Shown here: piece by piece, positions 4,969 to 40,500 of the stretch
How the letters are laid out: every line of letters starts with the position of its first letter
Numbering within the stretch: the stretch's first letter is position 1
DNA from: Zygaena filipendulae
Lineage: Eukaryota; Arthropoda; Insecta; Lepidoptera; Zygaenidae
Assembly (NCBI GenBank): GCA_907165275.2
Contig: OU015674.1
Location: forward strand, 1,550,001-1,614,000
Direction of reading: 5' to 3'
Length of the DNA stretch: 64,000 nucleotides
The notes under the pieces: generated by a model
Database searches by the model: none
What the model was told of the DNA's origin: nothing
What the model saw: only the letters and a program-made list of their open reading frames with translations
Made by a program: the position numbers and the translations under genes

Positions 4969-5093
4969 CTAGAGCGGCGCGGCGAGCGGCGCGGCGAGCA
5001 GCGCGCCGAACTGCAGCAGCGCCTCGCGCAGCGCCGCGCCCGCGTCCGCCGCGCGCCGCCGCCCCGCCAGCCCCACCAGCGACGGGTACACGC
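4969..5093 (-). CDS. mon2: mon2 exon 38 (stop codon)
   Basis: [20 protein letters not shown] then [20 protein letters not shown] and TAG at 4971-4969, entered in phase 1. Aligns with LYP.LV.......S..V..AL.EAL..F...L..P at the MON2 C-terminus. The terminal GC-rich repeats (GGCGCGGCGAG) encode the [10 protein letters not shown] tail. Confidence 0.88.
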
Positions 5094-12600: not shown

Positions 12601-15600
12601 ATGTCTCTCCCCTCCCACGCCGCACACCGCACGCGGGCTGCATGTGTGCACTGTGCACACATGCAGCCCGCGTGCAGCTGTGGAGGGGACGGAGTTCAGT
12701 GCGCTTGTAAGGAGTAGTGATGTTAAAATTTATATCCGCGGATATGGATCCGAATACGGATATTTAGTGTCAAGATGCGCGAGTACGAATACGAATCATA
12801 ACTTTTTTAGGTGTCGACGCGTGTGACCTAGACGATGGCTAACGCCACTTGACGCTTTGCGTGACAGTTTAAATATCTGAATGGAATTTAATAGTTTTTC
12901 ATTCCTACCTGATCACCCATGTATATTATATAGAATTTCATCTATTGAATCGAAACATGAATAAGGTAAAAGGACCGTAAAAGATCCGCCATGAAAGTAA
13001 CGGATACGGATCTTTCTTTCCCCCCCGGATATCCGCGGATACGGATACGGATATCCGGCATATCAGTAGAGTAAACAGCGTCACTCACGTGCAGCAGGTG
13101 CGGCAGCGCGGTGCGGCTGTGGTGCGGCGCGGCGCGGTACAGCGCGGCGGCGGCGCCCAGGCAGCGCGCCGCCGCGCCCCCGCCCCGCGCGCGCGCGCCG
13201 CCCGCGCCCCCGCCCGCGCCCACCGCCCCCGCCAGCGCCGTCAGCGCAGCGAACACCTCGCCCAGCAGCTCGTGACGGATCAGCGCCTCCTGCATATAGT
13301 ATCAGTGCGAATTCCAATCCGTTAGTTAACACTAGCTGTTCCCGGCGGTTTTACCCGCGTTATTTCGGAGTTCGCGCGGGAATTCCGGGATTAAAACTAC
13401 CCTATGTCCTTTCTTGTACCCCTAACAATGTGTATGCAAAATTTCATGATGATCGGTTGAACCATTAAGACGTGAAAGCGTAACAGATAGACCGACAGAC
13501 AAACAGACAGAGTGACTTTTGCATTTATAATATTACTAGCTGTGCCCCGCGGTTTCACCCGCGTTAATTTCAGAGTTCCCGCGGGAATTCCGGGATAAAA
13601 AGTACCCTATGTGTTAATCTGATGTATAAGCTATATTATTGTAAAGTTTCATTTAAATCCATCCAGTAGTTTTTTCGTGAAATAGTAACAAACATCCATC
13701 CATCCATCCATACATACAAACTTTCGCGTTTATAATATTAGTAGGATATATCAATTAACTTTGGTGAATGATAATAATCATCTTTATTTCTTTCAATAAT
13801 TGCAATAATTAGACTAACATAATGTATCCTTACTTATAAATTCTAATTTGTTTACTTTAATTTTAAACAGGGAATGCCCGTGCCATAAGTACCAGCATAA
13901 ATGATGCTGGATGGACGGATAGATGGCTGGATGGTGATGAATATGGAGCAGTTACCTTGGTGACAGCGTCGAGGCAGTGCAGCGCGTGCAGGCTGACGGG
14001 CGCCGCGGCCACCGAGTTGATGCTGTCCATGGCCGAGCTGGACGGCTCCACCGCGCACACCGCCGCCAGGCACTCGCCCAGCCGCCGCACGTCCTCGGGG
14101 GTGAACCTGGGGCCGGGGCCGGGGCCGGCGGACATATTGTGTGCTAGGTATACGCACTATCGGACGAACAGTTGTGCTATCTATACGCACTATCGGACGA
14201 ACAGTTGTGCAAGCTATACGCACTATCGGACGAACAACAGGGTAGTTTCCGGGGGATGAAAATCAAAATTCTAGTTAGTCCGTCAGTTGGATAATAAAAA
14301 CAACAATAGACACGTCATATTTTTTTCTTATTCAAATTGTTGAAAAAATACGAACATAAAACGCATTAAAGTTTAGGAGTGGGGGGGCTCTTGATAATTC
14401 CAGAGTTCCCGCGGGATTTCCGCGATAAAAGCTATTCTATCTTTTAAGTTGTAATATAAATGGTTACAAATTTTTATCGAAATCCGTTCAGTAGTTTAGG
14501 AGTCCATCGCGGACAAACAACGTGACACGTGATTTATATATATTAAGATAAGATAAGATAAGGAGTTCCCGCGGGAATTCCGGGAAAAAAATATTCTAAG
14601 TATGTCCATCTTTGTATACTTACCCCTGCCATGAGTTTACGGTGATTAGCTGTTCCCCGGATTAATTCCGGAGTTCCCGCGGGAATTCCGAGATAAAAAC
14701 TATCCTATCTCTTAAGTTGGGCCAAATACAACATAGTGACGAAATTTCATCACGATCGATTCAGTAGTTTATTAAGATAAGATAAGATGTTTTCTCGCTG
14801 TGTAGTATATTTTGTGATATCCACACAACTCGACGAACTTTTGTGCTATGCCACTGTCGAACCAGCATTTGTGTCAGGCACACTATGGGACGAATGTTAT
14901 TTTATGGTGTGGCGGGAGCAGGATGGATGATATGGCTCGACCGCCACCAAAGGGGAAGCTTCCCGCCGGGCGAGGTGGTATGCCCGGGGAACCGCGGCTC
15001 CGACTGTAGATCGTCGGAGGTCGTATATATACAGCGCAGTGTGAAAACTTCGTTAGCGCGATTCAGGACTTACCGCCGCACTCAGAGTCGACTTTAATGA
15101 TTACTTAGTTAAGTATAGATTTTTAAAACAAAATTGCCGCTATCAGAGACGTGGAGTAAATTTATGTTAATTGGCATTTAATGAGATGTAACTTACGGCC
15201 GCACTCAGAGTCGACTTTAATGGTTACTTAGTTAAGTATAGATTTTTAAAACAAAACTGACGCAATCAGAGACGTTCAGTAAATTAATGTTAATTGGCAT
15301 TTAATGAGACGTAACTTAATTAATTAAATGTCTACTAACATTAATTTATTAAACTTGTCTGATTGCGGCAGTTTTGTTTTAAAAATCTATACTTAACCAA
15401 GTAATCATTAAAGTCGACTCTGAGTGCGGCGGTTAGTACTCGTCGCTACGTTGTAGTTCGTGACATGTGGCATAGGGGTCGCCACAGTATTTATTTATTT
15501 TTATTTTTTTTTTTTTAAAGTATACTCACGTGGGCCGGATGTGCTGGAATATGAGCGGGAATATCTGCACAAGGGTGGTGAGGAAGTTGAGCGACGGCGC

Positions 15601-16548: not shown

Positions 16549-19500
16549 TGTGCGTGCGTGCGTTACCGGGCGCGCCGCCCCCGAGCGCGGCGGCGATGCG
16601 TGTCCAGGCGGCCCAGGCGGCGGCCCACACGCGGCGCTGCAGCGCGCCCCCCGCGCCCCCCGCGCCGCCCGCCGCCTCGCCCGCGCGCCCCGCCGCCGTC
16701 ACCACCTCCTGGAACGACTTGAGCGCCGCCAGCGACACCTGCCGCACGCATACAACACTAGTATATGTATATCAAGTGTTTTTGCAAAGGAATCCAAAAA
16801 TATTCAGAGACACATTTCAGTTTCTTCGCATGGGAATTTAAAATTTACATTTTAAATTTTTTTTTTTAAATTAAATTAAATTTTGAAAAATCTTATTGCG
16901 TCGCGTCGTGTTAGGAAACTGTACACAGTGGAACTAACTCTCTGTATTCTCAGGACTCGGTGAGAGTATCGATCGCAAAAAACCCGAAGTATTCGATTCT
17001 CGTTCCTAATATACAGGTGTCCCGTAAATCGACGTCAAGCCAGAACCGGGTGATAGGCTAGGCTAAGTCATAACTTAATAGAAAAGCGTAAAAAAATAAT
17101 CTTTAAAAAAATGGTCATTGATAAAAATTATAAACTTTACAGCCTGCGACGGTTCTTTAACTCCTGTTGCTACAAACCTTAACTTTTTTCAATTTTCTTC
17201 TTATTGTGTAATAGTGTTTCTGAAAATTACTGCTTAAAAGTTTAGTTTTTGCCAATGAAGTTTTCAAAATTATTGCTTTCGTCAGTTTTTAATGACTGTC
17301 CTTTTTTTTAAATAGGCATAGCAAAAATTTTTATATTTTTCTGTTAACAGCTGTTATGACTATAGCCTATCGCCTGGTTCTGGCTTGATGCCGATTTACG
17401 GGACAACCTGTATGTACAATATATTTCTACTGCATTGATATATGCGGTTTTTTGCATGTGCAGAATCAGCCCGCGATTTAGTTAGTATATCCTTTTAAAA
17501 AGAGCTAGAAACAGTCGCCCTAAACTTTAAACGCTTCAAACTTTAACAGCGTGGCGTGACACCGACCTCGTGCGAGCGCCGCAGCGCGAAGTCGGTGATG
17601 TAGTCGAGCAGCGCCGCCCACGAGCGGTTGAAGTCGCCCACCGCGGTGAGCAGCTGGAAGCGCGAGTGGAACACGCGCGACACGCCCGACAGCGTCAGCA
17701 CCTGCTCGAGGGGTGCTTATTATTTAAAAACACCCCCAAAATCTCAGTGTTTTCGAAAATGTCTGGTTTGTTAAACTCGTGTAAGAAGTTTCAAATGAAA
17801 CTGTGGAATCCTGTTTCTTTTTACACCAATGCTTACAAGCAGAAACTTTGTCCTCAAAAAAGTTTCACCTGAAAATAAAGTTTCTACTAAAATTAGGAAC
17901 GATTAACGTCAAAACACAAATTAGCAAAAATCATGCCCTATAGAACACTATTACACAATTTGGATATGATTTTGCATTATACGTCACCTCGAAATAGATT
18001 CTATACGATTTCTCGCCATCATACTTATTATAATTAAAGTTTTTTTTTTTTTTGTGAGCGGCATCGAGTAGCGGCGAACAAAGTAAATCTCTACTAAACT
18101 GCAGGTACCTGCGTTTCAGCCCACTGTTTCTGCGCCGTGTTCCTGGTGTGATGGATCAGGATGTGCTCGCCCGTGTCCACCTTCTCCGAGCTGGCGATGT
18201 TCGACTGCTTCTGCACCTGTTCACCGAGAATGGAAGTTAAGGAGATAATGTTTGAGTTCGCTAGTACATCCGGAGCTCTTTTAAAACGTAAAAATAAAGC
18301 GTCTAGCATTAGAATCCACCCCCCGCTTACATGGTGCTTCCTCGAGTAACGGCGAGCCTAAAGGCGATAATGCGGTGCGTGCTGTCGCTGCTGTGCGTGT
18401 GTAGGACTATCAACTTGAGTGTCCCCCCCCCCCCCTCCGGCCCCACGTCGCACGCGCACCCCGCACGAGCCGGTAGTGTAGTGGGGTGTGACGTCACCTG
18501 GTCCAGCATGGGGAACAGCACGGCGAGCAGCGCGCGCCACGCGGGCCGCGTGAGCAGCGAGCCGTGCGCGCCCACGTGCGGGTGTGTGACGTCACCTGGT
18601 CCAGCATGGGGAACAGCACGGCGAGCAGCGCGCGCCACGCGGGCCGCGTGAGCAGCGAGCCGTGCGCGCCCACGTGCGGGTGTGTGACGTCACCTGGTCC
18701 AGCATGGGGAACAGCACGGCGAGCAGCGCGCGCCACGCGGGCCGCGTGAGCAGCGAGCCGTGCGCGCCCACGTGCGGGTGTGTGACGTCACCTGGTCCAG
18801 CATGGGGAACAGCACGGCGAGCAGCGCGCGCCACGCGGGCCGCGTGAGCAGCGAGCCGTGCGCGCCCACGTGCGGGTGTGTGACGTCACCTGGTCCAGCA
18901 TGGGGAACAGCACGGCGAGCAGCGCGCGCCACGCGGGCCGCGTGAGCAGCGAGCCGTGCGCGCCCACGTGCGGGTGTGTGACGTCACCTGGTCCAGCATG
19001 GGGAACAGCACGGCGAGCAGCGCGCGCCACGCGGGCCGCGTGAGCAGCGAGCCGTGCGCGCCCACGTGCGGGTGTGTGACGTCACCTGGTCCAGCATGGG
19101 GAACAGCACGGCGAGCAGCGCGCGCCACGCGGGCCGCGTGAGCAGCGAGCCGTGCGCGCCCACGTGCGGGTGTGTGACGTCACCTGGTCCAGCATGGGGA
19201 ACAGCACGGCGAGCAGCGCGCGCCACGCGGGCCGCGTGAGCAGCGAGCCGTGCGCGCCCACGTGCGGGTGTGTGACGTCACCTGGTCCAGCATGGGGAAC
19301 AGCACGGCGAGCAGCGCGCGCCACGCGGGCCGCGTGAGCAGCGAGCCGTGCGCGCCCACGTGCGGGTGTGTGACGTCACCTGGTCCAGCATGGGGAACAG
19401 CACGGCGAGCAGCGCGCGCCACGCGGGCCGCGTGAGCAGCGAGCCGTGCGCGCCCACGTGCGGGTGTGTGACGTCACCTGGTCCAGCATGGGGAACAGCA

Positions 19501-22500
19501 CGGCGAGCAGCGCGCGCCACGCGGGCCGCGTGAGCAGCGAGCCGTGCGCGCCCACGTGCGGGTGTGTGACGTCACCTGGTCCAGCATGGGGAACAGCACG
19601 GCGAGCAGCGCGCGCCACGCGGGCCGCGTGAGCAGCGAGCCGTGCGCGCCCACGTGCGGGTGTGTGACGTCACCTGGTCCAGCATGGGGAACAGCACGGC
19701 GAGCAGCGCGCGCCACGCGGGCCGCGTGAGCAGCGAGCCGTGCGCGCCCACGTGCGGGTGTGTGACGTCACCTGGTCCAGCATGGGGAACAGCACGGCGA
19801 GCAGCGCGCGCCACGCGGGCCGCGTGAGCAGCGAGCCGTGCGCGCCCACGTGCGGGTGTGTGACGTCACCTGGTCCAGCATGGGGAACAGCACGGCGAGC
19901 AGCGCGCGCCACGCGGGCCGCGTGAGCAGCGAGCCGTGCGCGCCCACGTGCGGGTGTGTGACGTCACCTGGTCCAGCATGGGGAACAGCACGGCGAGCAG
20001 CGCGCGCCACGCGGGCCGCGTGAGCAGCGAGCCGTGCGCGCCCACGTGCGGGTGTGTGACGTCACCTGGTCCAGCATGGGGAACAGCACGGCGAGCAGCG
20101 CGCGCCACGCGGGCCGCGTGAGCAGCGAGCCGTGCGCGCCCACGTGCGGGTGTGTGACGTCACCTGGTCCAGCATGGGGAACAGCACGGCGAGCAGCGCG
20201 CGCCACGCGGGCCGCGTGAGCAGCGAGCCGTGCGCGCCCACGTGCGGGTGTGTGACGTCACCTGGTCCAGCATGGGGAACAGCACGGCGAGCAGCGCGCG
20301 CCACGCGGGCCGCGTGAGCAGCGAGCCGTGCGCGCCCACGTGCGGGTGTGTGACGTCACCTGGTCCAGCATGGGGAACAGCACGGCGAGCAGCGCGCGCC
20401 ACGCGGGCCGCGTGAGCAGCGAGCCGTGCGCGCCCACGTGCGGGTGTGTGACGTCACCTGGTCCAGCATGGGGAACAGCACGGCGAGCAGCGCGCGCCAC
20501 GCGGGCCGCGTGAGCAGCGAGCCGTGCGCGCCCACGTGCGGGTGTGTGACGTCACCTGGTCCAGCATGGGGAACAGCACGGCGAGCAGCGCGCGCCACGC
20601 GGGCCGCGTGAGCAGCGAGCCGTGCGCGCCCACGTGCGGGTGTGTGACGTCACCTGGTCCAGCATGGGGAACAGCACGGCGAGCAGCGCGCGCCACGCGG
20701 GCCGCGTGAGCAGCGAGCCGTGCGCGCCCACGTGCGGGTGTGTGACGTCACCTGGTCCAGCATGGGGAACAGCACGGCGAGCAGCGCGCGCCACGCGGGC
20801 CGCGTGAGCAGCGAGCCGTGCGCGCCCACGCAGCTGAACAGCGTCTGGCTGGCGGCGCGGCGGACCGGCGCGCGCGGCTCCGTGCACAGCTCGCCTGCGA
20901 CCCGGCCACAAATCAACCATTATTCACATATACACGCATATTTTATTACACGTTGAGGAGCGTTAGTTTCTTTAAAAATTTAGTAGAAATTAAAACCCAA
21001 AACCCTGGATGTGAAACTAATTGTAAGATAGCGCCCAGAGCCGCGAAGGTCTCCAGCATAAAAACGCTTGTGCTCGTCGTGCGTGAATCACTCTTTTTGC
21101 GCTGAAAGCGTTTTTATACCATCATAATAATACATAATTACGTCTGTTACACAACTGCAACTAACGTGAAGTGACTTGAACTTACGAAATCGAAACTACG
21201 TATATCTATACCTATAATAAAACTTTAAAAAATCAGTGCAGAGTACTAATTGCATGCCATTAAACGATCATTACCTTATTTTTAACCTCTTTTTCTGTGT
21301 GTCTGTCCGGTGCTAGTGTTCAGAGCGACTGGACCGCTTTTTATTAAACTTAGATGGAAAATCATAATGAATATAGTCAGTCAGATAATTGTAAAAAAAA
21401 TAAAAAAGCCACATATTTTTTGCTTTTTCAAATTAATGAAAAAAATACTTCGATAAAGCGCGTATATGAGGCTCGAGACGTCGTAACCCGGAATTTCAAC
21501 TCAATGTATCGCCGTTATTTTTTCAATACGTAAAAGAAGGAAAAATACCTACGTGTCCATTAAAATTTAGTCATCATGTACCACTTTATAATTAGAGTAT
21601 AACCTAAATGTGTGTGTGTGATGTGTGTGAATGTGGGTTGTGTGGACTGGTGTGCAGGTACTCACTGAGCCGTATGTAGAGGCACATCCAGAGCCGGTCG
21701 AGCGGCGGCAGCTCGCCGTGGCTGGGCAGCTCGGGGCACACGGCCGCCTCGTGTGCCAGCGCCGCCGCCAGCTTGTCGCGGTTGTGGTACAGGTAGTCCG
21801 ATATGTTCCACTGCGGGTTGCGGGTTGCGGGTTGCGAAGTTTATGTATGTTTTTGAAACTAGCTATGCCCGCCCGTTTAATTTAGGGAAAAACTAACTAA
21901 ATAGTATATTTCATTATAAGTGCGGAAAGGCTGTCATTGCAAAGAGTTCCGACATATGTCTACCCGAGCCGAGGCGCAGCCGAAGGTGAGGGTTGACAGT
22001 CGGAACTCTTTGCAATGACGGTTCCGCACGTGTACTGAACAACTATTTTTAGTACAGTTGCGAAAAAATTAAGCAATTTAATAAAATATCAAAAACACAA
22101 TAAACTCAACTAAGTTCCAACTGTGATCAAGAGATGGCGCTAGTCGTATTACTTACGTTTCGCAATGCAAAAAGTGTGTCAAAGTCGTGTCGCCATTTTT
22201 GACAGTTGGCAAAGAGAACGCACGAGTTCGGGAAAGGTAAACAAAAAGCTCGAGTATGTAATAGCCCACATCCCGAACGCTAAACGTCCCTGCAATACGC
22301 CACTTTTTGAGCAACTGTATTAAAAAATATATTCCACAGCTAACCGTTAACGCAGCGTGCGCAATGGAAGCTCTCAAAGGGAATAATTTTACCCGTTTTT
22401 GCAACCTTATTCATTGCTATTCTGCTCCTATTGGTCATAGCGTGATGTTATATAGCCTATAGTTCTCCACGATAAATGGGCTATCTAACACAGTAAGAAT

Positions 22501-25500
22501 TTCTCAAAATATAGGACCAGTAGTTCCTGAGATTAGCGCGTTAAAGCAAACAAACAAACTCTTCAGCTTTATAATATTAGTATAGATAAAATGACATAAC
22601 CTTTATACGTTACTAGCTGTCCCCTACGAGTTCACCCGCGGAAATTTCGGAGTTCTCGCGGGAATTTCAGCAGTCGAGTGTTGAGTGGTGTGTGTCGAGT
22701 GTGGAGTTGTGTGTGTAGAGTGGTGAGTGTTGTGTGTCGAGTGGTGAGTGGTGTGTGTCGAGTGTGGAGTTGTGTGTGTAGAGTGGTGAGTGTTGTGTGT
22801 CGAGTGGTGAGTGGTGTGTGTCGAGTGGTGAGTGGTGTGTGTCGAGTGTTGAGGGGTGTGTGTAGAGTGGTGAGTAGTGTGTGTCGAGTGGTGAGTGGTG
22901 TGTGTCGAGTGTTGAGTGGTGTGTGTCGAGTGTGGAGTTGTGTGTGTAGAGTGGTGAGTGTTGTGTGTCGAGTGGTGAGTGGTGTGTGTCGAGTGGTGAG
23001 TGGTGTGTGTCGAGTGTTGAGGGGTGTGTGTAGAGTGGTGAGTAGTGTGTGTCGAGTGGTGAGTGGTGTGTGTCGAGTGGTGAGTGGTGAGTAGTGTGTG
23101 TCGAGTGTTGAGTGGGGTGGGTCGAGTGTTGAGCGGGGTGGGTCGAGTGTTGAGCGGGGTGGGTCGAGTGTTGAGTGGGGTGGGTCGAGTGTTGAGTGGG
23201 GTGGGTCGAGTGTTGAGTGGGGTGGGTCGAGTGTTGAGTGGGGTGGGTCGAGTGTTGAGTGGAATGTGGGCTGTGTGGATCGCTCACCATGAGGCCGACG
23301 GCGGTGAGGCTGATGTTGAGCTCCCTGGTCTGCGTGGCGAAGGCGGCGGCGGCGGCCAGCACCTGGCGCAGGCAGCGCGGGCCCGCGCAGCCCAGCAGGT
23401 CGCCCGCCACTACCTGGCAGCACTGGAACGCCGAGCGGATCAGCTGCTCGCTGCGGGGCACGCACCACACCACACTCTCACTCCGAGGGTCAACACTCAA
23501 CAGGCTAGACTAGGTGATTCATTTTTACACTATAATATTACTATCGTTATATTGTAACACCCTGTCAGAGTACATATAATAGGGTACTCTCCAGGGTATA
23601 AAAATCAAAATTCCAATTAGTCCGTCCGTTAGAAAATAAAAGAATAATAGACACGTATTTTTTTTCTTTTTCAAATTAATGAAAATGAACATAGATAAAA
23701 CGCATTAAAATTTAGGGTGGGGGACTTGTGACGCCATTATTCAGTATAAGCCCCGCACAAACTGCACCGGGTTGCGACGTAACGCGAAATTTCAACTCAA
23801 TGTATCGCCGTTATTTTTTGATTACGTAAAAAAAGAAAAAATACGTGTCCAATATTTTCTACTAATCTACACGACAAACTAAAAAAAATATTTAGTCAAT
23901 TAATGCATAGCTAGCTGTGTTATGCGTCGCTAACCTGTGCTGCGAGGAGATGGCGGCGACGATCTCCATCATGAGCGGCCAGGCGGCGCCGAGCTGGTCG
24001 CCGCGCGAGTGCAGCAGGCGCGCCGCGCACTCCAGCTGGCGCGCGCGCACGTCGCCGTGCCGCACGCAGCACAGCGCCGACAGCGGCTCCAGCACCAGCC
24101 GCGACCGCGCCTGCCGCCCGCCAGCCACAACCCTCACTACACGTTATACAACCAAGGCCTCCGCCGCGTCTGTCTGTCTGTCTGTTTGCGACGCACTCCA
24201 AAACTAAGCAACGGTTTCCACCAATAGATAGATTGATTCAAAAGGTTTATACGTATTGTTTATCCTGGTATTCCCGCGAGAACTTCGAAATTACCACGGG
24301 TGAAACCGTGGGGGACAGCTAGTTCATTATAATAATCATATTATCTATATCTATACTTATAATAAAACTGTAGAGAGGTCAATTCTGTAAATTGAATATA
24401 TATTCAAAATTAATATTGGAGGATGAATGGTGATCGATACTGATACCAAAAATTCAATAAGTAAATTTTTTGTCTGTCTGTATGTGCACGCATGGGCCAA
24501 AAACTACTAAAGGGATTTTAACCAAACTTGGTACGATTGTAGTCCATACTCCTGGGCAGGTTATAGGCTATATAACATAACGCTAAGACACATAGGAGCT
24601 GAGCAGTGACGATAAATTTGAAGCAAGTCGGATGAAAATGCGCCTTCGAGCTCTTATCCTCGCATACGTTTACTCAAGCACGCGAAAACTGCTGAACGGA
24701 TTTGGATGAAATTTGGTATGCACGTTGTCAGCGGTACAGAGAAGGACATAGGATACTTTTTATCCCGGAATTCCCGCAAGAACTCCGAAATTACCGCGGG
24801 TGAAACTGCGGGGCACAGCTATTATAAAATATAATCCTTACTAATATTATGATTGCGAAAGTGAGTTTGTTTGTTTCTTGCACGAAATTTTGCATACACG
24901 TTGTCAGGAATACAGAGAAGGACATAGGCTACTTTTAACCCGGAATTTCCACGGGAAGTTCAAAATAAACGGGCAAGAAACTACATTAAATTTTGCATAC
25001 TACCAATACGTTTTCAAAGGTAGGCACAGAAACAAATATAGGGTAGTAAGTACTTTTATCTCGGAATACCCGCGGGACCTCCGAAACTAAAGCTGTTAAA
25101 TAATAAATACCAGCACACCACCACCATACACAAATATTAAACTACTAGCTGTCCCCGCGGTTTCAACCGCGGTATTTTCGGATTTCCCGCGGGAATTCCG
25201 GGATAAAAAGATATTTTGTTCAATTTCAATTATTTTATTTGTAAGTATATTTTAACATAATAGAGTTTATTTATTAAGATTTTTAAGAAAATCAGCACAT
25301 TCGGCGATGAATAGCGTCGAGCAAAAAGTTTTATTTACTGTCCCATCAACCTAAATGCTTACGTCTGTGACGAGTCCCGGGTTGTTGTGGTGATATTGGA
25401 AGGCCGCCTGCACCAAATAGGTGATGGCTTCCACTCCCCATTCGCGCATTCTTATGTGCGGGTGCTGGCATACCTGATGAGGACCAGAAAAATGTTCAAA

Positions 25501-28500: not shown

Positions 28501-31500
28501 CACCTGGTGGCGGTGGTCGGCGTCGGCGGGCGCGGCGTCGCGGCGCCACGGGCACGGCAGCGCGCCCAGCGCGGGCACGCAGTACGCGGCCGGCAGCGCG
28601 CAGCGGCACAGCGCCGACACGCACGCGTCGCGCCCCACCGCGTGCCCGGTCTGAGACGACACGTCACCAAAAACATATATTTATTTATTTATTTATTCAT
28701 TTATTCAGCCAACAGAAATACACCAGCTTACCAATTACAACAAAACAAAATCTTTTGTTTCTTTCAAACAAAGGTTGTGTGACTCAGAAGTCTCTCACCT
28801 TCCCGCTGACCCTGGCGAGGGTCTGTATGGCGCGCAGTATGTTCTCCAGCTCCCCTATACTGGCCTCAGCCAGCACCGACAGGCCCCACACCAGGCCGCA
28901 CCACGACGACTTGAGCAGCTGGGAATTTCACAATTTAATCGTACCAAAACCTTACATCTATACTAATATTATAAAGAGCAAAAGTTTGTAAGTTTGTGAC
29001 GATGTAGGAGGTAATTTCTGGATCTGCTGAACCGATTTTGAAAATTGTTTCACTTATAGGAAGCTACAGTGATCCTGAGTGACATAGGGTACTTTTTATC
29101 CCGGAATTCCCGCGGGAACTCTAAAATTACCGCGGGTGAAACCGCGAGGTCAGCTAGTACAGTAAAAAATGACGGAATCTAGACAGAAAGAAATTCGGAT
29201 CCCACCAGAAATACAAAACATACAAATACGTTGGGTGACTTTTCGATATCTCTAAACGGATCCATACGAAAGTGCGAAACTCATCCCCACAGCCTCACCT
29301 GCAGCCTCACCATCTGCTCCTTCTCCTCCACGTCTTCAATCTTCTGCACCACATTGGAGTTCTGATCTGGCTGTTCGCTATGGCCGTTGCTGGTCTCCTC
29401 ACTATTCTCCGGTTTAGTTTCTGACTCCGCTGTTGGATAATAGTACGGGAGCCCATGAGGGGATTTGTCGATTTACTAAAGCGCGTCAGATTAACATAAA
29501 GGAGGTACCTTGCACCATGGTGAGTACCTCCACCAAATATAGACCCTCTACACAGAGCCGCGCGTCTAGGATAGCCAATCAGAACAGTAAAAAAAAAACG
29601 ATAGCTAGATATACTCGAACTCATCAGATTAAGGTATGGTAGGTTAATTGTGCCTGTTCTTTTTTTTACATTTTTGAAAGCCTGTAGAACTGAACCTACC
29701 AGTGAAAGAAAAAAACATCATTTAACCTTATTTTGTTTTTACCTCCTATTCTTCAAAACCCATTAGGCCCCAACCCAACGACGCTCGAGTAAATCCCCAT
29801 TTAGCATCGTCATCTGCCGTACTATAATAATGCATGTATCGATGACCATAGTGAGTACGACAGTGTCACATTGTTGAAGGAACACAATAATCTGAATAAC
29901 ACAATCGGTATTAAAAATCGGCACGTCACAGCTTATTTGATTTGACAGAGCCGAATCCATGGCCTTTGGTAGTAAAGTTTATTTAGGGATTTTTAATAAT
30001 AATTGTTTATTACTCGTTCAAACGGTGAGATGGATTTGTATAATATTCGGAATTGAGATAGTTTATTTCCGCAAATAGATTAGATACATTAATTTTGATC
30101 AGATAGTCAATGATACAATTGTGCACTAATACACTTGCCTCCAACTACAATTACAGCTGCTAACAAGTTACCTTTTCCATTGCCGTTTTTGTTAGAGTTG
30201 ACTTCCTTCTCTTCGCCATCATTCTGACAGTCCTCATACAATTCTTGAAGTCTGTGGTGGAAAACAAGAAAAATTAAATATACAAAAAGTTTCACCACTT
30301 TCGCATGTACACATGCACACAAACAATACAAACAAATAGGAATAGAGGAGAACAGAAATAGAAAAAAATAGAAATAAATTTATTTATGCACAATGATTAA
30401 TCATTTAGAAAGTTACTGTTACACTTTTGATTGGATCCATCTTAACATATAGCTACAGCAGTGATGCTGAGGCGCTAAAACTCAGCTGAGTTAGCGGAAA
30501 TCCGGACGACATACAGACAGACTAAAGGGACAGTCAGCCAGAGCAATAAATACTGATTACAGTCCTAACTTATAGATGAAAGGTGAAAGTGATTTTGTTA
30601 CACAATCACGCCTAACTACTCACTACACTCTGTCAGGGGTACAGTAAAGAACACAGGGTACATTGTGTCCCGGAATTCCCGCGGGAACTCCGAAATTAAC
30701 GCTAGCATAATCTGCATAATACACACACACACGCAACTATAGATGGACAATCAACCCGGTGCTTGAGATGAAACCCGATAAAAGTCTGCCGTTTTCGGAT
30801 TTAAACCCAATAAAAGGCCACAAAGTCTGGCCGAGTTGATTGCCCATCTATACACTCACCGGAAATAGTCAGCGCCCTCTATGGTGATGGCGATGGACCT
30901 CACGATCTCCATGAGGCACGCGTACGCGACCGATATGCCGTACCCGTCCTGTATCGACGGCGCCTCCGTACGGTCCAGCATCTCGAGGCTGGCGGCAGAT
31001 GGAGCCACAGGATGCAATCAACAAATTAATCCTTATAAATGAAAATGTGAGTATGTTTGTGTGTTACGTGTTCACGGCTTTTTTGTGGTTGAATTTTCCA
31101 AAATCCTTTTTTATCGGATGCCTACGTCTTACAAAGAACACACCCTCCAAGTTTCAGGTCTCTACGATCAGCGGTTTAGGCTGTGCGTTGATCCGTCAGT
31201 CATTCAGGTCAAAGCATTTTATACATATTATGTATCGATATACATAATTATGTGTCTGACTCACTAGAGTGCTTTAGCAGTGCCCGGCTCGAAGGCGACG
31301 CAGAGCGGGAGCCACACTCCCTTCCAGTAGAAGCCTGACTGCTGCGGGATGCTGGAGGCGCCTGCAACAAAGGTAGCACGACAGTAGAGGCCATCTTCTT
31401 TCATTATGAAGGATGTATTATTCGGAAAAACATTTAAATAAAAAATTTGAATAGCAATCAATCAAATCAAAATCAAATCAATATACCTATAATTAATAGA

Positions 31501-34500: not shown

Positions 34501-37500
34501 TAGATAGGTCACCTCCAAACTAATGTTGAATAACTTTTAAAATATAAATTTTTAGACATAAAATATATCTTAATCATATTATTGTTAATTTTTTTAAATG
34601 GGGTGTATCAGGTTTTCAGTTAATTCATTAACACGTTGTATATGTTGTATAGTATCAGTGGTTCCACACACAGTCAATTTAGAAAACACACAATTTGAAT
34701 ACACTGAAATCCCGTTTAATATATTTTATTACGTCATTGAATGTCTGTGTGGTTGTCAACATTCGCAGAACCACCCGCCGCGCAACGGGCGACCGTCGTC
34801 GACGAGAGACGACTCATCGCTGAAGAGAGGCACGCGCACGAGGACTTGAGCGGCCCCATGATGCTGGTCACCGTGAAAGAGCCCGAGAATCAGGACCTGA
34901 TAGACCTGAACGACGTCATCCCACCCGACATCGACGACGTCGGCGACAGGCTCGAATGGGAGGAGTACGGCTTTATCCATAAACAATAAAGCTCGATACT
35001 TTGTCGAATGTGTTATGCTGTGTGTTATTTATCCGTGCTGGGCCTGTTGTCAAACGCCCACATAAGGGACTCTTGCCAAGCACCCGTGCGGGAGACTGTC
35101 GTCATGCACCCATGCTGGGGATTGTCTTCATGCACTGACTGGGACTATCACCATGCGCTTGTGCGAGGGACTGTCACCATGCGCTTGTGCAAGGGACTGT
35201 CACCATGCGCTTGTACAAGGGACTGTCACCATGCGCTTGTGCAAGGGACTGTCACCATGCGCTTGTGCAAGGAGCTGTCACCATGCGCTTGTGCAAGGGA
35301 AGTCACCATGCGCTTGTGCAAGGGACTGTCACCATGCGCTTGTACAAGGGACTGTCACCATGCGCTTGTGCAAGGGACTGTCACCATGCGCTTGTGCAAG
35401 GGACTGTCACCATGCGCTTGTGCAAGGGACTGTCACCATGCGCTTGTGCAAGGGACTGTCACCATGCGCTTGTGCAAGGAACTGTCACCATGCGCTTGTG
35501 CAAGGGAAGTCACCATGCGCTTGTGCAAGGGACTGTCACCATGCGCTTGTACAAGGGACTGTCACCGTGCGCTTGTGCAAGGGACTGTCACCATGCGCTT
35601 GTGCAAGGGACTGTCACCATGCGCTTGTGCAAGGGACTGTCACCATGCGCTTGTGCAAGGGACTGTCACCATGCGCTTGTACAAGGGACTGTCACCATGC
35701 GCTTGTGCAAGGTAAGTCACCATGCGCTTGTGCAAGGGAAGTCACCATGCGCTTGTGCAAGGGAAGTCACCATGCGCTTGTGCAAGGGACTGTCACCATG
35801 CGCTTGTGCAAGGGACTGTCACCATGCGCTTGTACAAGGGACTGTCACCATGCGCTTGTGCAAGGGACTGTCACCATGCACTTGTACAAGGGACTGTCAC
35901 CATGCGCTTGTGCAAGGGACTGTCACCATGCGCTTGTACAAGGGACTGTCACCATGCGCTTGTACAAGGGACTGTCACCATGCGCTTGTGCAAGGGACTG
36001 TCACCATGCGCTTGTGCAAGGGACTGTCACCATGCGCTTGTGCAAGGAACTGTCACCATGCGCTTGTGCAAGGGACTGTCACCATGCGCTTGTGCAAGGG
36101 ACTGTCACCATGCGCTTGTGCAAGGGACTGTCACCATGCGCTTGTACAAGGGACTGTCACCATGCGCTTGTGCAAGGGACTGTCACCATGCGCTTGTGCA
36201 AGGAACTGTCACCATGCGCTTGTGCAAGGGAAGTCACCATGCGCTTGTGCAAGGGACTGTCACCATGCGCTTGTACAAGGGACTGTCACCATGCGCTTGT
36301 GCAAGGGACTGTCACCATGCGCTTGTGCAAGGGACTGTCACCATGCGCTTGTGCAAGGGACTGTCACCATGCGCTTGTACAAGGGACTGTCACCATGCGC
36401 TTGTGCAAGGGAAGTCACCATGCGCTTGTGCAAGGGAAGTCACCATGCGCTTGTGCAAGGGAAGTCACCATGCGCTTGTGCAAGGGACTGTCACCATGCG
36501 CTTGTGCAAGGGACTGTCACCATGCGCTTGTACAAGGGACTGTCACCATGCGCTTGTGCAAGGGACTGTCACCATGCACTTGCACAAGGGACTGTCACCA
36601 TGCGCTTGTGCGAGGGACTGTCACCATGCGCTTGTGCAAGGGACTGTCACCATGCGCTTGTACAAGGGACTGTCACCATGCGCTTGTACAAGGGACTGTC
36701 ACCATGCGCTTGTGCAAGGGACTGTCACCATGCACTTGTACAAGGGACTGTCACCATGCGCTTGTGCGAGGGACTGTCACCATGCACTTGTACAAGGGAC
36801 TGTTACCATGCGCTTGTGCGAGGGACTGTCACCATGCGCTTGTGCGAGGGACTGTCACCATGCGCTTGTGCGAGGGACTGTCACCATGCGCTTGTGCGAG
36901 GGACTGTCACCACACGTTTCCGAGAGGCCAGACCGGCCCGTAGCAATGGGGATGAGCAGGTGTAGGAAAGCCTTCCCATTGGATGAGCTGACGATATAGA
37001 AGATCTCGAGGGTCAGCAATAACATTTATGGAAAGTTTTCTATCCAGAAGCAGTGGAGTGTCAGGTCAGGCGGTGCGGTGTGAGTGAGTGAGTGAGTGAT
37101 TGAGTGAGTGAGTGAGTGAGTGAGTGACTGACCGGCGGGCGTGTTGACCTGCGAGGCGACGAACAGGCTCTGCACGTAGGCGCCCAGCGCGTTCACGATG
37201 TCCTGGAAGATGTTGGTGGCGTGCGGCCGCATGTCGTAGCACGCGCAAAACGCCTTCAGCAGATCTGGACGCAGAGACATTACTAATTCACGTTTCGTTG
37301 CATTATTATATAGTTTCAAGCTGTTTATCCCTTTTCAACCGTTTTAAAGATCGAATTTACATAAATCCTTCCTCCTAATTCGCTAAACTACAAAAGAAAG
37401 GCTTATTTTGTGTGTTGATGATGTGATATGCTGATAAAGTTTAAGTTACATGTGCTCATTGACTGACTGAGTCATCAATATGTACAAAATAACATCTATA

Positions 37501-40500
37501 TTATACGTATACAAGGCACGCCGCACGCGCTACGCACACAGCGAGCGGTCAGCTGGTCAGCTCTTTATAACTTCTTTGGTTTTGTTTTATACAACATACT
37601 ACGACCGCGATCGAGCGACGATCGACGTCATTGATCTTAAGATACCAGCGCGCGGCGATGCACCCTCACAGGTTGTTTTCTTTTTGATTATTTTGTTTGA
37701 AAAAAAAAATTATTCTTCTTATCTTTTTATTATTTTATGACGGTGTATACTTTCAACCCTGTAAGAGTTTGCAGCTAATTTAGCCACACCTTATAGGTCT
37801 GACACTCACCAGGCTGTATGGTCATCTTGTGCAGCACCTCCAGCGCTAGCGCCCTCTGCCAGAGAGGTTTGTCCGGGTCCAGGAATTTTATGGTCAGCGA
37901 CAGGAAGATCTCGCACTCGGTGACCTGGTGATGGGTGAGACACGATGCGATAAAGAAAGCACATTTACTCGAGACTACAGACTAGTGTCAGCGATTCGCG
38001 TTCTTGAGCAGGTACCAAGTACGTTTTTTGAATATTTTTTAACTTTGCAGACGGATTATAAAATGTTTTTTGTTTTATTATTTAAATTGCTAATTAATCT
38101 TATACGTTTTCACTGAGATAAGCGTATTTTATATTTTTTTTTACTAGCTGTTCCCCGCGGTTTCACCCGCGTTAATTTCGGAGTTCCTGCGGGAATCCCG
38201 GGATAAAAAATACCCTATATCCTTTTCTGTACCTCCGACAATGTGTATCCAAAATTTCATCACGATCGGTTCAGTAGGTGATTTAAGCCGTGTGAAAGCG
38301 TAACAAACAAACAAACTCACATTTGCATTTACAATAGGCATGGCATTAAGTTAGTATTTCCTCGGTGGTGTGGAGCGGTGTCCCCCGCACTGTCCCCTGC
38401 CCACTCACCAGCACCGAGTGGTACTTGTGCACGATGACGGACACGAGCCGCAGCAGCCGCATGGTGACCGGGAAGTGGGGCCGCTCGGGGCCCCCCGCGG
38501 GCCCGCCCGGGGCCCCCGCCGGCGCGCCCGCGCCCTGCCCGGCGGGCGCCGCGCCCGGGATGTGCAGCGACGTGAACGCGGCCCTAGCGCACAAATCATC
38601 ATCATAACACTTCACAACACACAGATATAAGCTACAAGCTTGTATTGTGGAAACCACGCAACATATGGTATAATGCTACATGAACATAATAGTACTTATA
38701 GAAAAATACGTTTTTAAAAACAAGCTTTTATTTAAATGCGCTAAAAAGACTAAACTATTCATTGTCATCCAAACTAAATGTGTATGCAATATTTTAGTTC
38801 AATCGGTTGAAGATATCTGGTTCAAAATTGACTTGCAAGATTCCACACGAACAAACATAGTTACATACATACATAAAAGTTTTTAATAAACACACCCTGA
38901 CTGTAAAGTGGAACCCTGTATTGTGAGAGATTATTTCAGAAACTGCACCTATCTATACAATATATTATGCTCATGGAAATACTTCAAATAAAATTATAAT
39001 GTATGAAATTCATATTAAAAATAAATCACTTTATTTATTCCAAAGTGAACCTCACCTATATTTAACGTTGGGTGAAAACAGCCTTATAATCAGCGCGCAC
39101 ACGTGCTCCTTCAACAGGAATCTGAACTCGGATATCTATAAATAGAAATTTACTAATTTTATCAGTACATTGCAACTTGTTCAAATAAATTTATTTTCTT
39201 TCTTTCTTTCTTTCTTGTTTCTTTCATAAAATGTGTTTGTTAATACTCATCTCTGTGACAGCAGATCGAATTTTCATGTTGTATAAAACCAAAGAAAGGT
39301 TTCACCCGCGGTAATTTCGGATGTCCCGCGGGAATTCCGGGATAAAAAGTACCCTATGTCCTTCTCTGCACCCCTGACAACGTGCATGCCAAATTTCATC
39401 CAAATCCGTTCAGCCGTTTTTGCGTGATTGAGTAACAAACATCCAAACATCCACACTTTCACAATTATAATATTAGTAGAATTATATCTAAATATTTTTA
39501 TTTTATTTTATGTACATTATCATAGTTATATTTTAGGTCCTGGAAATATACTTTCCATTAAAAAAAATGTAAAGGTACTGAAGGAATAATAGTGTCAGTA
39601 AAAAGATACTGTAATGCATCTAAACAGAGTACAAACTTGATTGATCAACCTCATTATGTTATACCTTAAAAAACACGGGCGAGAAATCAGTGAGGACTGT
39701 ATCCAATAGTTCCAGTCCAAACGTCTTCGGCACGTCGGATATGCCGACCAGCCAATGGGGTGCGTCGCCGTTGACCAGCTGAATTATGTCCTGAACAAAA
39801 AAAGGCATACATAAAGGATCTGCGAGATGGGAGATATTACGATAAATTAATGGCCATCATTAATCGTAAAGAGATAGGATCAAAAACAAGATTGTTATAT
39901 ATAATTACTTGTAATATAAGATAAGCATCGACCGCACAAGGCTTCATGTCTTTAGGCGCCTTGCTGTTATTCTGCGGCCGCACGTCCGCCGGCTTCACTC
40001 TCATCACACCTGCCAACACAAGGAGGAACTAAATTTACTACAGTTCGAGGACATTACATAATTCTATCTCTGGATCTCTCTCTCTCTCTCTAGTGTGTGT
40101 GTGCGCGCGCGCGCGCGTCGTGCGTGCGTACGTTTGCGGGTGTGTGTGGGTGCATTTGTGTGTGCGTGTTGTTACAACTTGAACAAAAATGTAAATATAA
40201 TCCTTTGTAATAGAAAACTTTTATAACCTGGCGGAGCCCCAGTCTATACTCTATATGCATGCGTGCGTGGGTGCGCGTGCATGCGTGCGTGTTGGCGTGC
40301 GTGAGTACGCGCGTGCGTGCGTGCAGGTGTGTGTGTGTGTGTGTTTGTGTGCCTGTATATGTAAGATGGCCGCGTGCGCGCCGCTCACCGTCCGCCTCGG
40401 CGAGCGCGCGCTCGAACACGAGCGCCACCAGCTGGCGCACGGTGGCGGCGGCTGCGTGGCTGGTGCTGATGTCGCGTGTCTCGCTCGCACACACCATCCG

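Follow-up and report, generated by a model that had tools for sequence, protein, structure and literature searches.

The stretch analysed here, referred to as the window, comprises 64,000 nucleotides of contig OU015674.1 from the genome of the burnet moth Zygaena filipendulae (positions 1,550,001 to 1,614,000, forward strand), and contains a MON2 homologue in which the end of one coding exon, together with its splice donor, is repeated in a tandem array of 98-bp units. A spliced alignment guided by the MON2 protein of Loxostege (P0001) recovers 39 coding exons on the minus strand, from position 42248 to position 4984, which encode 1645 codons without a stop. The Pfam domains Mon2_C, DCB, HUS and HDS are found within residues 1-1194 of the product, and the identity of the gene, already proposed in an initial annotation of the window, is upheld by this alignment. 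A genome search with a 191-residue piece of the protein gave 27 matches, all on the same contig, and no second MON2 locus.

The array and its host gene

The array occupies positions 18486..20830 on the minus strand. Tandem Repeats Finder (TRF) describes it with a period of 98, 23.9 copies, 100% matches, 0% indels and a score of 4690, and cutting it into units yields 23 identical 98-mers followed by one last, equally identical 91-mer, in line with the roughly 24 identical copies first reported. Its GC content is 74%, against 41% for the window. In the one assembly covered, the head-to-tail arrangement and the unit length place it among the minisatellites (units of about 10-100 bp).

The array opens with the final 79 nt of exon 26 (20752..20894, 143 nt), which make up the exonic part of the first copy (20830-20752). 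They are followed by the first donor, GTGACG (20746..20751). The next exon, exon 27, lies at 18109..18216 (108 nt), and the unique remainder of the intron (18217..18485) extends from the last copy to the exon 27 acceptor. These two exons had been numbered 25 and 26 in the initial annotation, which correctly described the unit as an exon end plus donor. The division within it, however, is not 78 + 20 nt but 79 nt of exon 26 and 19 nt that are intronic only in part: 12 intron nucleotides (GTGACGTCACAC) and a 7-nt filler, ACCCGCA, whose first example lies at 20733..20739. The filler is present at all 23 joints between copies and absent from both edges of the array, where unique exon precedes the first copy and unique intron follows the GTGACGTCACAC of the last one. 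Since the last copy ends at GTGACGTCACAC and the first is preceded by unique exon, the founding segment would have been of 91 bp, consisting of 79 exon and 12 intron nucleotides.

The exon 26/27 junction is covered by 119 of 120 aligned homologues (the best 120 of 211 found), none of which has an insert there, while the remaining one, P0095, ends before the junction. The 25 array-covered residues that were scored have 84% identity to the 37 best homologues (P0001-P0037, 36 with lepidopteran names and P0034 without one), against 81% for the whole protein, so that nothing in these residues and homologues suggests an effect of the array on the coding copy. A search with a 287-residue piece across the junction matched 98 proteins, at best with 83% identity and, among those scored, none from a transcript of the same species, in a protein database clustered at 90% and limited by length and shared words.

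The unit is confined to this locus. A search of the whole genome (56 contigs that total 365,880,709 bases; the window belongs to contig 25, of 8,527,417 bases) gave 24 matches, all inside the array. Of these, 23 have 100% identity, and the match to the partial last copy has 99% (positions 1-94). The published assembly totals 365,946,273 bp (PMC11422757), 65,564 above the version searched, and the versions may differ slightly. That assembly was built with hifiasm from 58-fold HiFi reads of 12-20 kb fragments and went through one round of 10X polishing (PMC11422757). The array is real in this HiFi-based assembly, and its copy number is the one assembled there. An error of assembly in the copy number, with a true intron that carries one or a few units, could be suspected from 24 copies without a single difference and from the fact that no other array of such perfection appears among 170 kb sampled from the genome. 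Nevertheless, the 2.3-kb array fits well within the HiFi fragments at that depth, and two further large arrays of the same window retain variants between their units (21 bp x 27.8 copies at 88%, and 26 bp x 68.5 copies at 95%, both by TRF), which indicates that the assembly preserves such differences. An assembly artefact, one of the sources initially considered, is therefore quite unlikely.

The other explanations offered at first for the missing divergence were a very recent expansion and an ongoing homogenisation, and only the former seems to be needed. With a mutation rate of 2.9e-9 per site per generation and a star-like origin, zero changes over 2345 bp give an upper 95% bound of about 440,000 generations. 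As this much time is permitted, the perfect identity would be that of a young array, and calls for neither continuous homogenisation nor error.

Donors, reading frames and splice borders

Each of the 24 copies offers the same donor to a single downstream exon. GTGACG scores 8.86 bits, and 26 of the 37 other donors of the gene score lower, which makes it, as judged by this score, a good ordinary donor. The intron measures 2535 nt from the first donor and 281 nt from the last, whose use would produce an exon of 2397 nt. Computation of the reading frames agrees with what had been predicted for them. With donor 1 the MON2 frame stays open and no stop appears; it is the sole donor for which this is so, and MON2 is therefore predicted to be made from donor 1 only. 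With donor 2 the frame shifts and the first stop is met 58 nt into exon 27, at a distance of 156 nt from where exon 26 ends. For donors 3-6 and 24, reading ends inside the array, where the donor of the second copy supplies a TGA, and the same stretch is contained in the products of donors 7-23. In the products of donors 2-6 and 24, no stop is closer than 1467 nt to the last junction, upstream of which all of them lie, and alternative donors with such early stops are one of the features of unproductive splicing coupled to decay.

The 79 nt before the exon 27 junction are common to all 24 donors, and the product of donor 1 carries CAGCTG before CGTGGGCG, where those of donors 2-24 carry CCCGCA. 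Consequently, RNA reads would need to extend 80 nt or more upstream of the junction to separate donor 1 from any other, and ordinary mapping would assign donors arbitrarily.

Contrary to the initial statement that the array brings no extra acceptor, every copy ends in CCAG directly before GT (CCAG/GTGACG), and thus holds a candidate acceptor next to its donor, with a score within the range of the real acceptors of the gene. The consequences of splicing between copies can be computed exactly and do not depend on the strength of the sites. In each of the 276 possible excisions, from donor i to the AG of a later copy j, the transcript loses j minus i units, regains its donor and is otherwise unchanged. 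Such excisions can only shorten the array, and splicing between copies would thus be harmless. Similarly, all 23 over-long mRNAs, produced by the use of a later donor, return to the normal mRNA when donor 1 is spliced to the AG that closes the extension, while an over-long mRNA that is not spliced again remains non-productive.

As to whether these AGs could work as acceptors, the evidence points both ways. With a matrix made from the gene's own 38 acceptors, the copy AG obtains 6.81, higher than the median of 6.43 and than 22 of the 38 real acceptors. Among decoy AGs, this full score is reached by 22 of the 1407 intronic ones and by 8 of the 270 exonic ones. The intron side, on the other hand, scores only 4.14 against a real median of 5.97 (15 of the 38 real acceptors are lower), a value equalled or exceeded by 147 of the intronic and 46 of the exonic decoys. 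The joint acceptor-donor score of 9.51 is reached outside the array by 9 of 110 sense AGGT sites of the gene, seven of which are real splice sites, but also by 5 of 89 antisense ones. The pyrimidine content from -20 to -4 is 65%, the same as at the real exon 27 acceptor, and a branch-like CTCAC motif is found 54 nt before the copy AG. Taken at sequence level, it is plausible that the copy AGs can serve as acceptors.

Proposed origin and tolerance of the array

The anatomy of the array is probably best explained by a young, near-neutral minisatellite that spans the border between exon 26 and its donor, and that grew from a single founding duplication. A 91-bp segment over the exon end and donor would have been tandemly duplicated once, with the 7-nt filler inserted at the joint, in an event that resembles end-joining repair or template switching. 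That each of the 23 joints, but neither edge, has the same type of filler points to such a single insertion, followed by copying of the whole unit. The resulting 98-bp unit would then have expanded to 24 copies as an ordinary minisatellite, too recently for any copy to have changed. All the extra copies lie downstream of the original donor, so that every use of the first donor would remove them as part of the intron. This donor, which bounds an exon of 143 nt and is transcribed first, would be favoured and would give rise to nearly all MON2 mRNA, leaving the remaining array as intron. The expansion was probably tolerated also because the unit extends from one AG/GT to the next: splicing between copies would shorten the array, and a second splice on an over-long mRNA would restore the normal one.

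A possible template for the filler exists nearby. About 1 kb upstream of the array, a 7-bp repeat whose unit is the filler sequence itself, ACCCGCA, is found at the acceptor of exon 25 (21812..21836, minus strand, by TRF and alignment), which is the second weakest of the 38 acceptors (-0.62 bits). In shuffled 1.5-kb flanks a single match to ACCCGCA occurred in 113 of 1000 cases and a tandem pair in 0 of 1000. The repeat at exon 25 could possibly have supplied the filler as a templated insertion.

Other sources of the array were examined and set aside. A strong secondary structure does not appear to drive it, neither for the unit as DNA (z 1.10, 174 of 200 shuffles at least as good) nor for the RNA of exon 26 with the first copies (z 0.15, 47 of 100 shuffles at least as good), and no known RNA family was detected over 18000-21200 up to an E value of 0.1. 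A dispersed element is rejected by the lack of any match to the unit elsewhere in the genome, and viral contigs contain no exact match to a 24-base piece of it.

Two points weigh against the explanation by a young and near-neutral minisatellite. Perfect identity is unusual: the 170-kb sample, made of 17 stretches of 10 kb (8 random, 4 fixed, 2 beside the window and 3 contig starts, with the smallest contig omitted), contains 8 TRF rows with 4 or more copies of a period no shorter than 10, one at 96% and none at 100%. In addition, when donors are duplicated, the intron-proximal copy can reportedly win at high U1 occupancy; in this array that would be the last copy, and its use would lead to a non-productive form. 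A role for such forms was raised in the first interpretation, as a possible dosage switch. Under this alternative, competition among donors would send some transcripts to forms with early stops, and the copy number would tune the output of MON2. Each non-first donor examined does lead to a stop that comes early, well before the last junction. However, any such donor with a frame-shifting or stop-containing extension would do likewise, support for regulation is limited to the stops themselves, and a switch of this kind must be regarded as highly improbable.

A second alternative is that splicing between copies is really used, with each copy acting as a 98-nt intron-like unit and the array being removed stepwise, or by a second splice on over-long mRNAs. 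The AG/GT border of each copy, the full acceptor score, the branch-like motif and the seven real splice sites among the sense AGGT sites that reach the joint score argue for it. Against it stand the weak intron side, the decoys and antisense sites that score as high, the divergence of the donor half gtgacg from the gtaagt consensus, and the rather long distance of the CTCAC motif from the AG, so that this use is unlikely. If it did occur, it would be a case of recursive splicing born of repeat expansion, with the end of a coding exon bound into the array. A somewhat broader, still doubtful proposal is that of a splice-neutral minisatellite, in which the unit from AG/GT to AG/GT may be a complete splicing cassette that always leads back to the same mRNA, and the donor could multiply 24-fold in a conserved gene at little cost.

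Tandem duplications that carry splice sites have already been described as a source of introns (PMC4974935, PMC2891723). Among the closest known systems are the Drosophila cases of intron gain by AGGT tandem duplication (PMC2891723), which share with the moth a GT...AG unit of the length of the duplication whose removal leaves the mRNA unchanged. In the moth this unit is the 98-nt GTGACG...CCAG produced by the duplicated segment, and the unchanged mRNA is a computed result. The difference from those cases (PMC2891723) is that here the AGGT is an existing exon/donor border, that the copies are 24 and identical, and that they are read from the genome sequence. The segment departs from the exon-internal duplication of the original model, as cited in PMC4974935, and spans the donor of exon 26. 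An intron gained in the potato RdRp gene is similar in that the duplicated segment spans an exon/intron border and inherits its splice signals, although it involves (PMC4974935) an acceptor border, two copies and RNA-read support, as opposed to the donor border and 24 copies read from the moth genome. The gained introns of SPOG_01682 and SOCG_00815 from fission yeast likewise contain several tandem units with a splice-like motif (AGGC in yeast), but these (PMC3629103) are 24-nt units, not fully identical, that do not copy an existing exon end and donor.

The ratchet points of recursive splicing have the consensus (y)nncag/gtaagt with a pyrimidine tract, and share with the array an AG/GT core that could be used first as an acceptor and afterwards as a donor, leaving a zero-length exon (PMC2773006). 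The moth differs from them (PMC2773006) in its off-consensus donor half, its short intron, its 23 identical copies and a use as acceptor that is only predicted. The core itself is found in every copy, with gtgacg as the donor half and the 65% pyrimidine given above. Ratchet points occur in very long host introns, of tens of kb, a length that neither the 2535 nt from the first donor nor the 281 nt from the last approaches.

The ranking of identical donors has been studied mostly with few engineered copies. The reporters with duplicated 5' splice sites of Eperon (1993 and 2000) reportedly set identical tandem donors in competition for one acceptor; those donors were few and engineered, whereas the moth has 24 natural ones. 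No described 24-fold array of an exon end plus donor came up among the literature entries listed or in passages of PMC4974935, PMC2891723, PMC8724738, PMC2773006, PMC3039753 and PMC12783039. The moth array amounts to a natural experiment, in which 24 identical donors face one acceptor and a single choice among them is productive, and would reveal the positional ranking of identical 5' splice sites in a living animal. A rule open to testing across genomes follows as a suggestion, namely that exon borders should more often tolerate repeat units running from AG/GT to AG/GT than units of other kinds.

Other repeats in the window and genome

Besides the 98-bp array, the gene contains several further repeats. 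The 21-bp minisatellite (22673-23262, 27.8 copies, 88%) lies in the intron after exon 24 and begins 26 nt from the end of this exon (23288). The 26-bp minisatellite is located in MON2 intron 10 (35080-36912; about 68 copies at 95% over 35141-36912), and its plus strand has long open frames, which seem to be by-products of the repeat. In the intron that follows exon 10, a (TCAC)n tetranucleotide repeat (37080-37131) begins exactly at the donor (gtcagtcactcac). Elsewhere in the same genome, TRF identified a 28-bp minisatellite of 22.6 copies at 96% on a 111-kb contig (L017, 3819-4448). Nine of the 17 non-exonic tandem arrays of the gene (window positions 4900-42400) are found at most 40 nt from a splice site, where 5.6 would be expected (p 0.045, at one threshold), a clustering too weak to be claimed.

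The palindrome GTGACGTCAC, also present at the start of the intron that holds the array, is found at several positions as two copies spaced by 44-47 bp (6910 and 6957, 12117 and 12161, 27937 and 27981, 32231 and 32278), and these pairs are perhaps part of a dispersed element. Finally, a dispersed repeat of 50-60 bp with a core like CCCGCGGGAATTCCGGGATAAAAAGTACCCTATGT (families D14 and D16) is found, apparently in both orientations, at 13353-13617, 14388-14715, 24746-24797, 29082-29133, 30651-30702, 38166-38225 and 39305-39364, and may perhaps belong to a mobile element.

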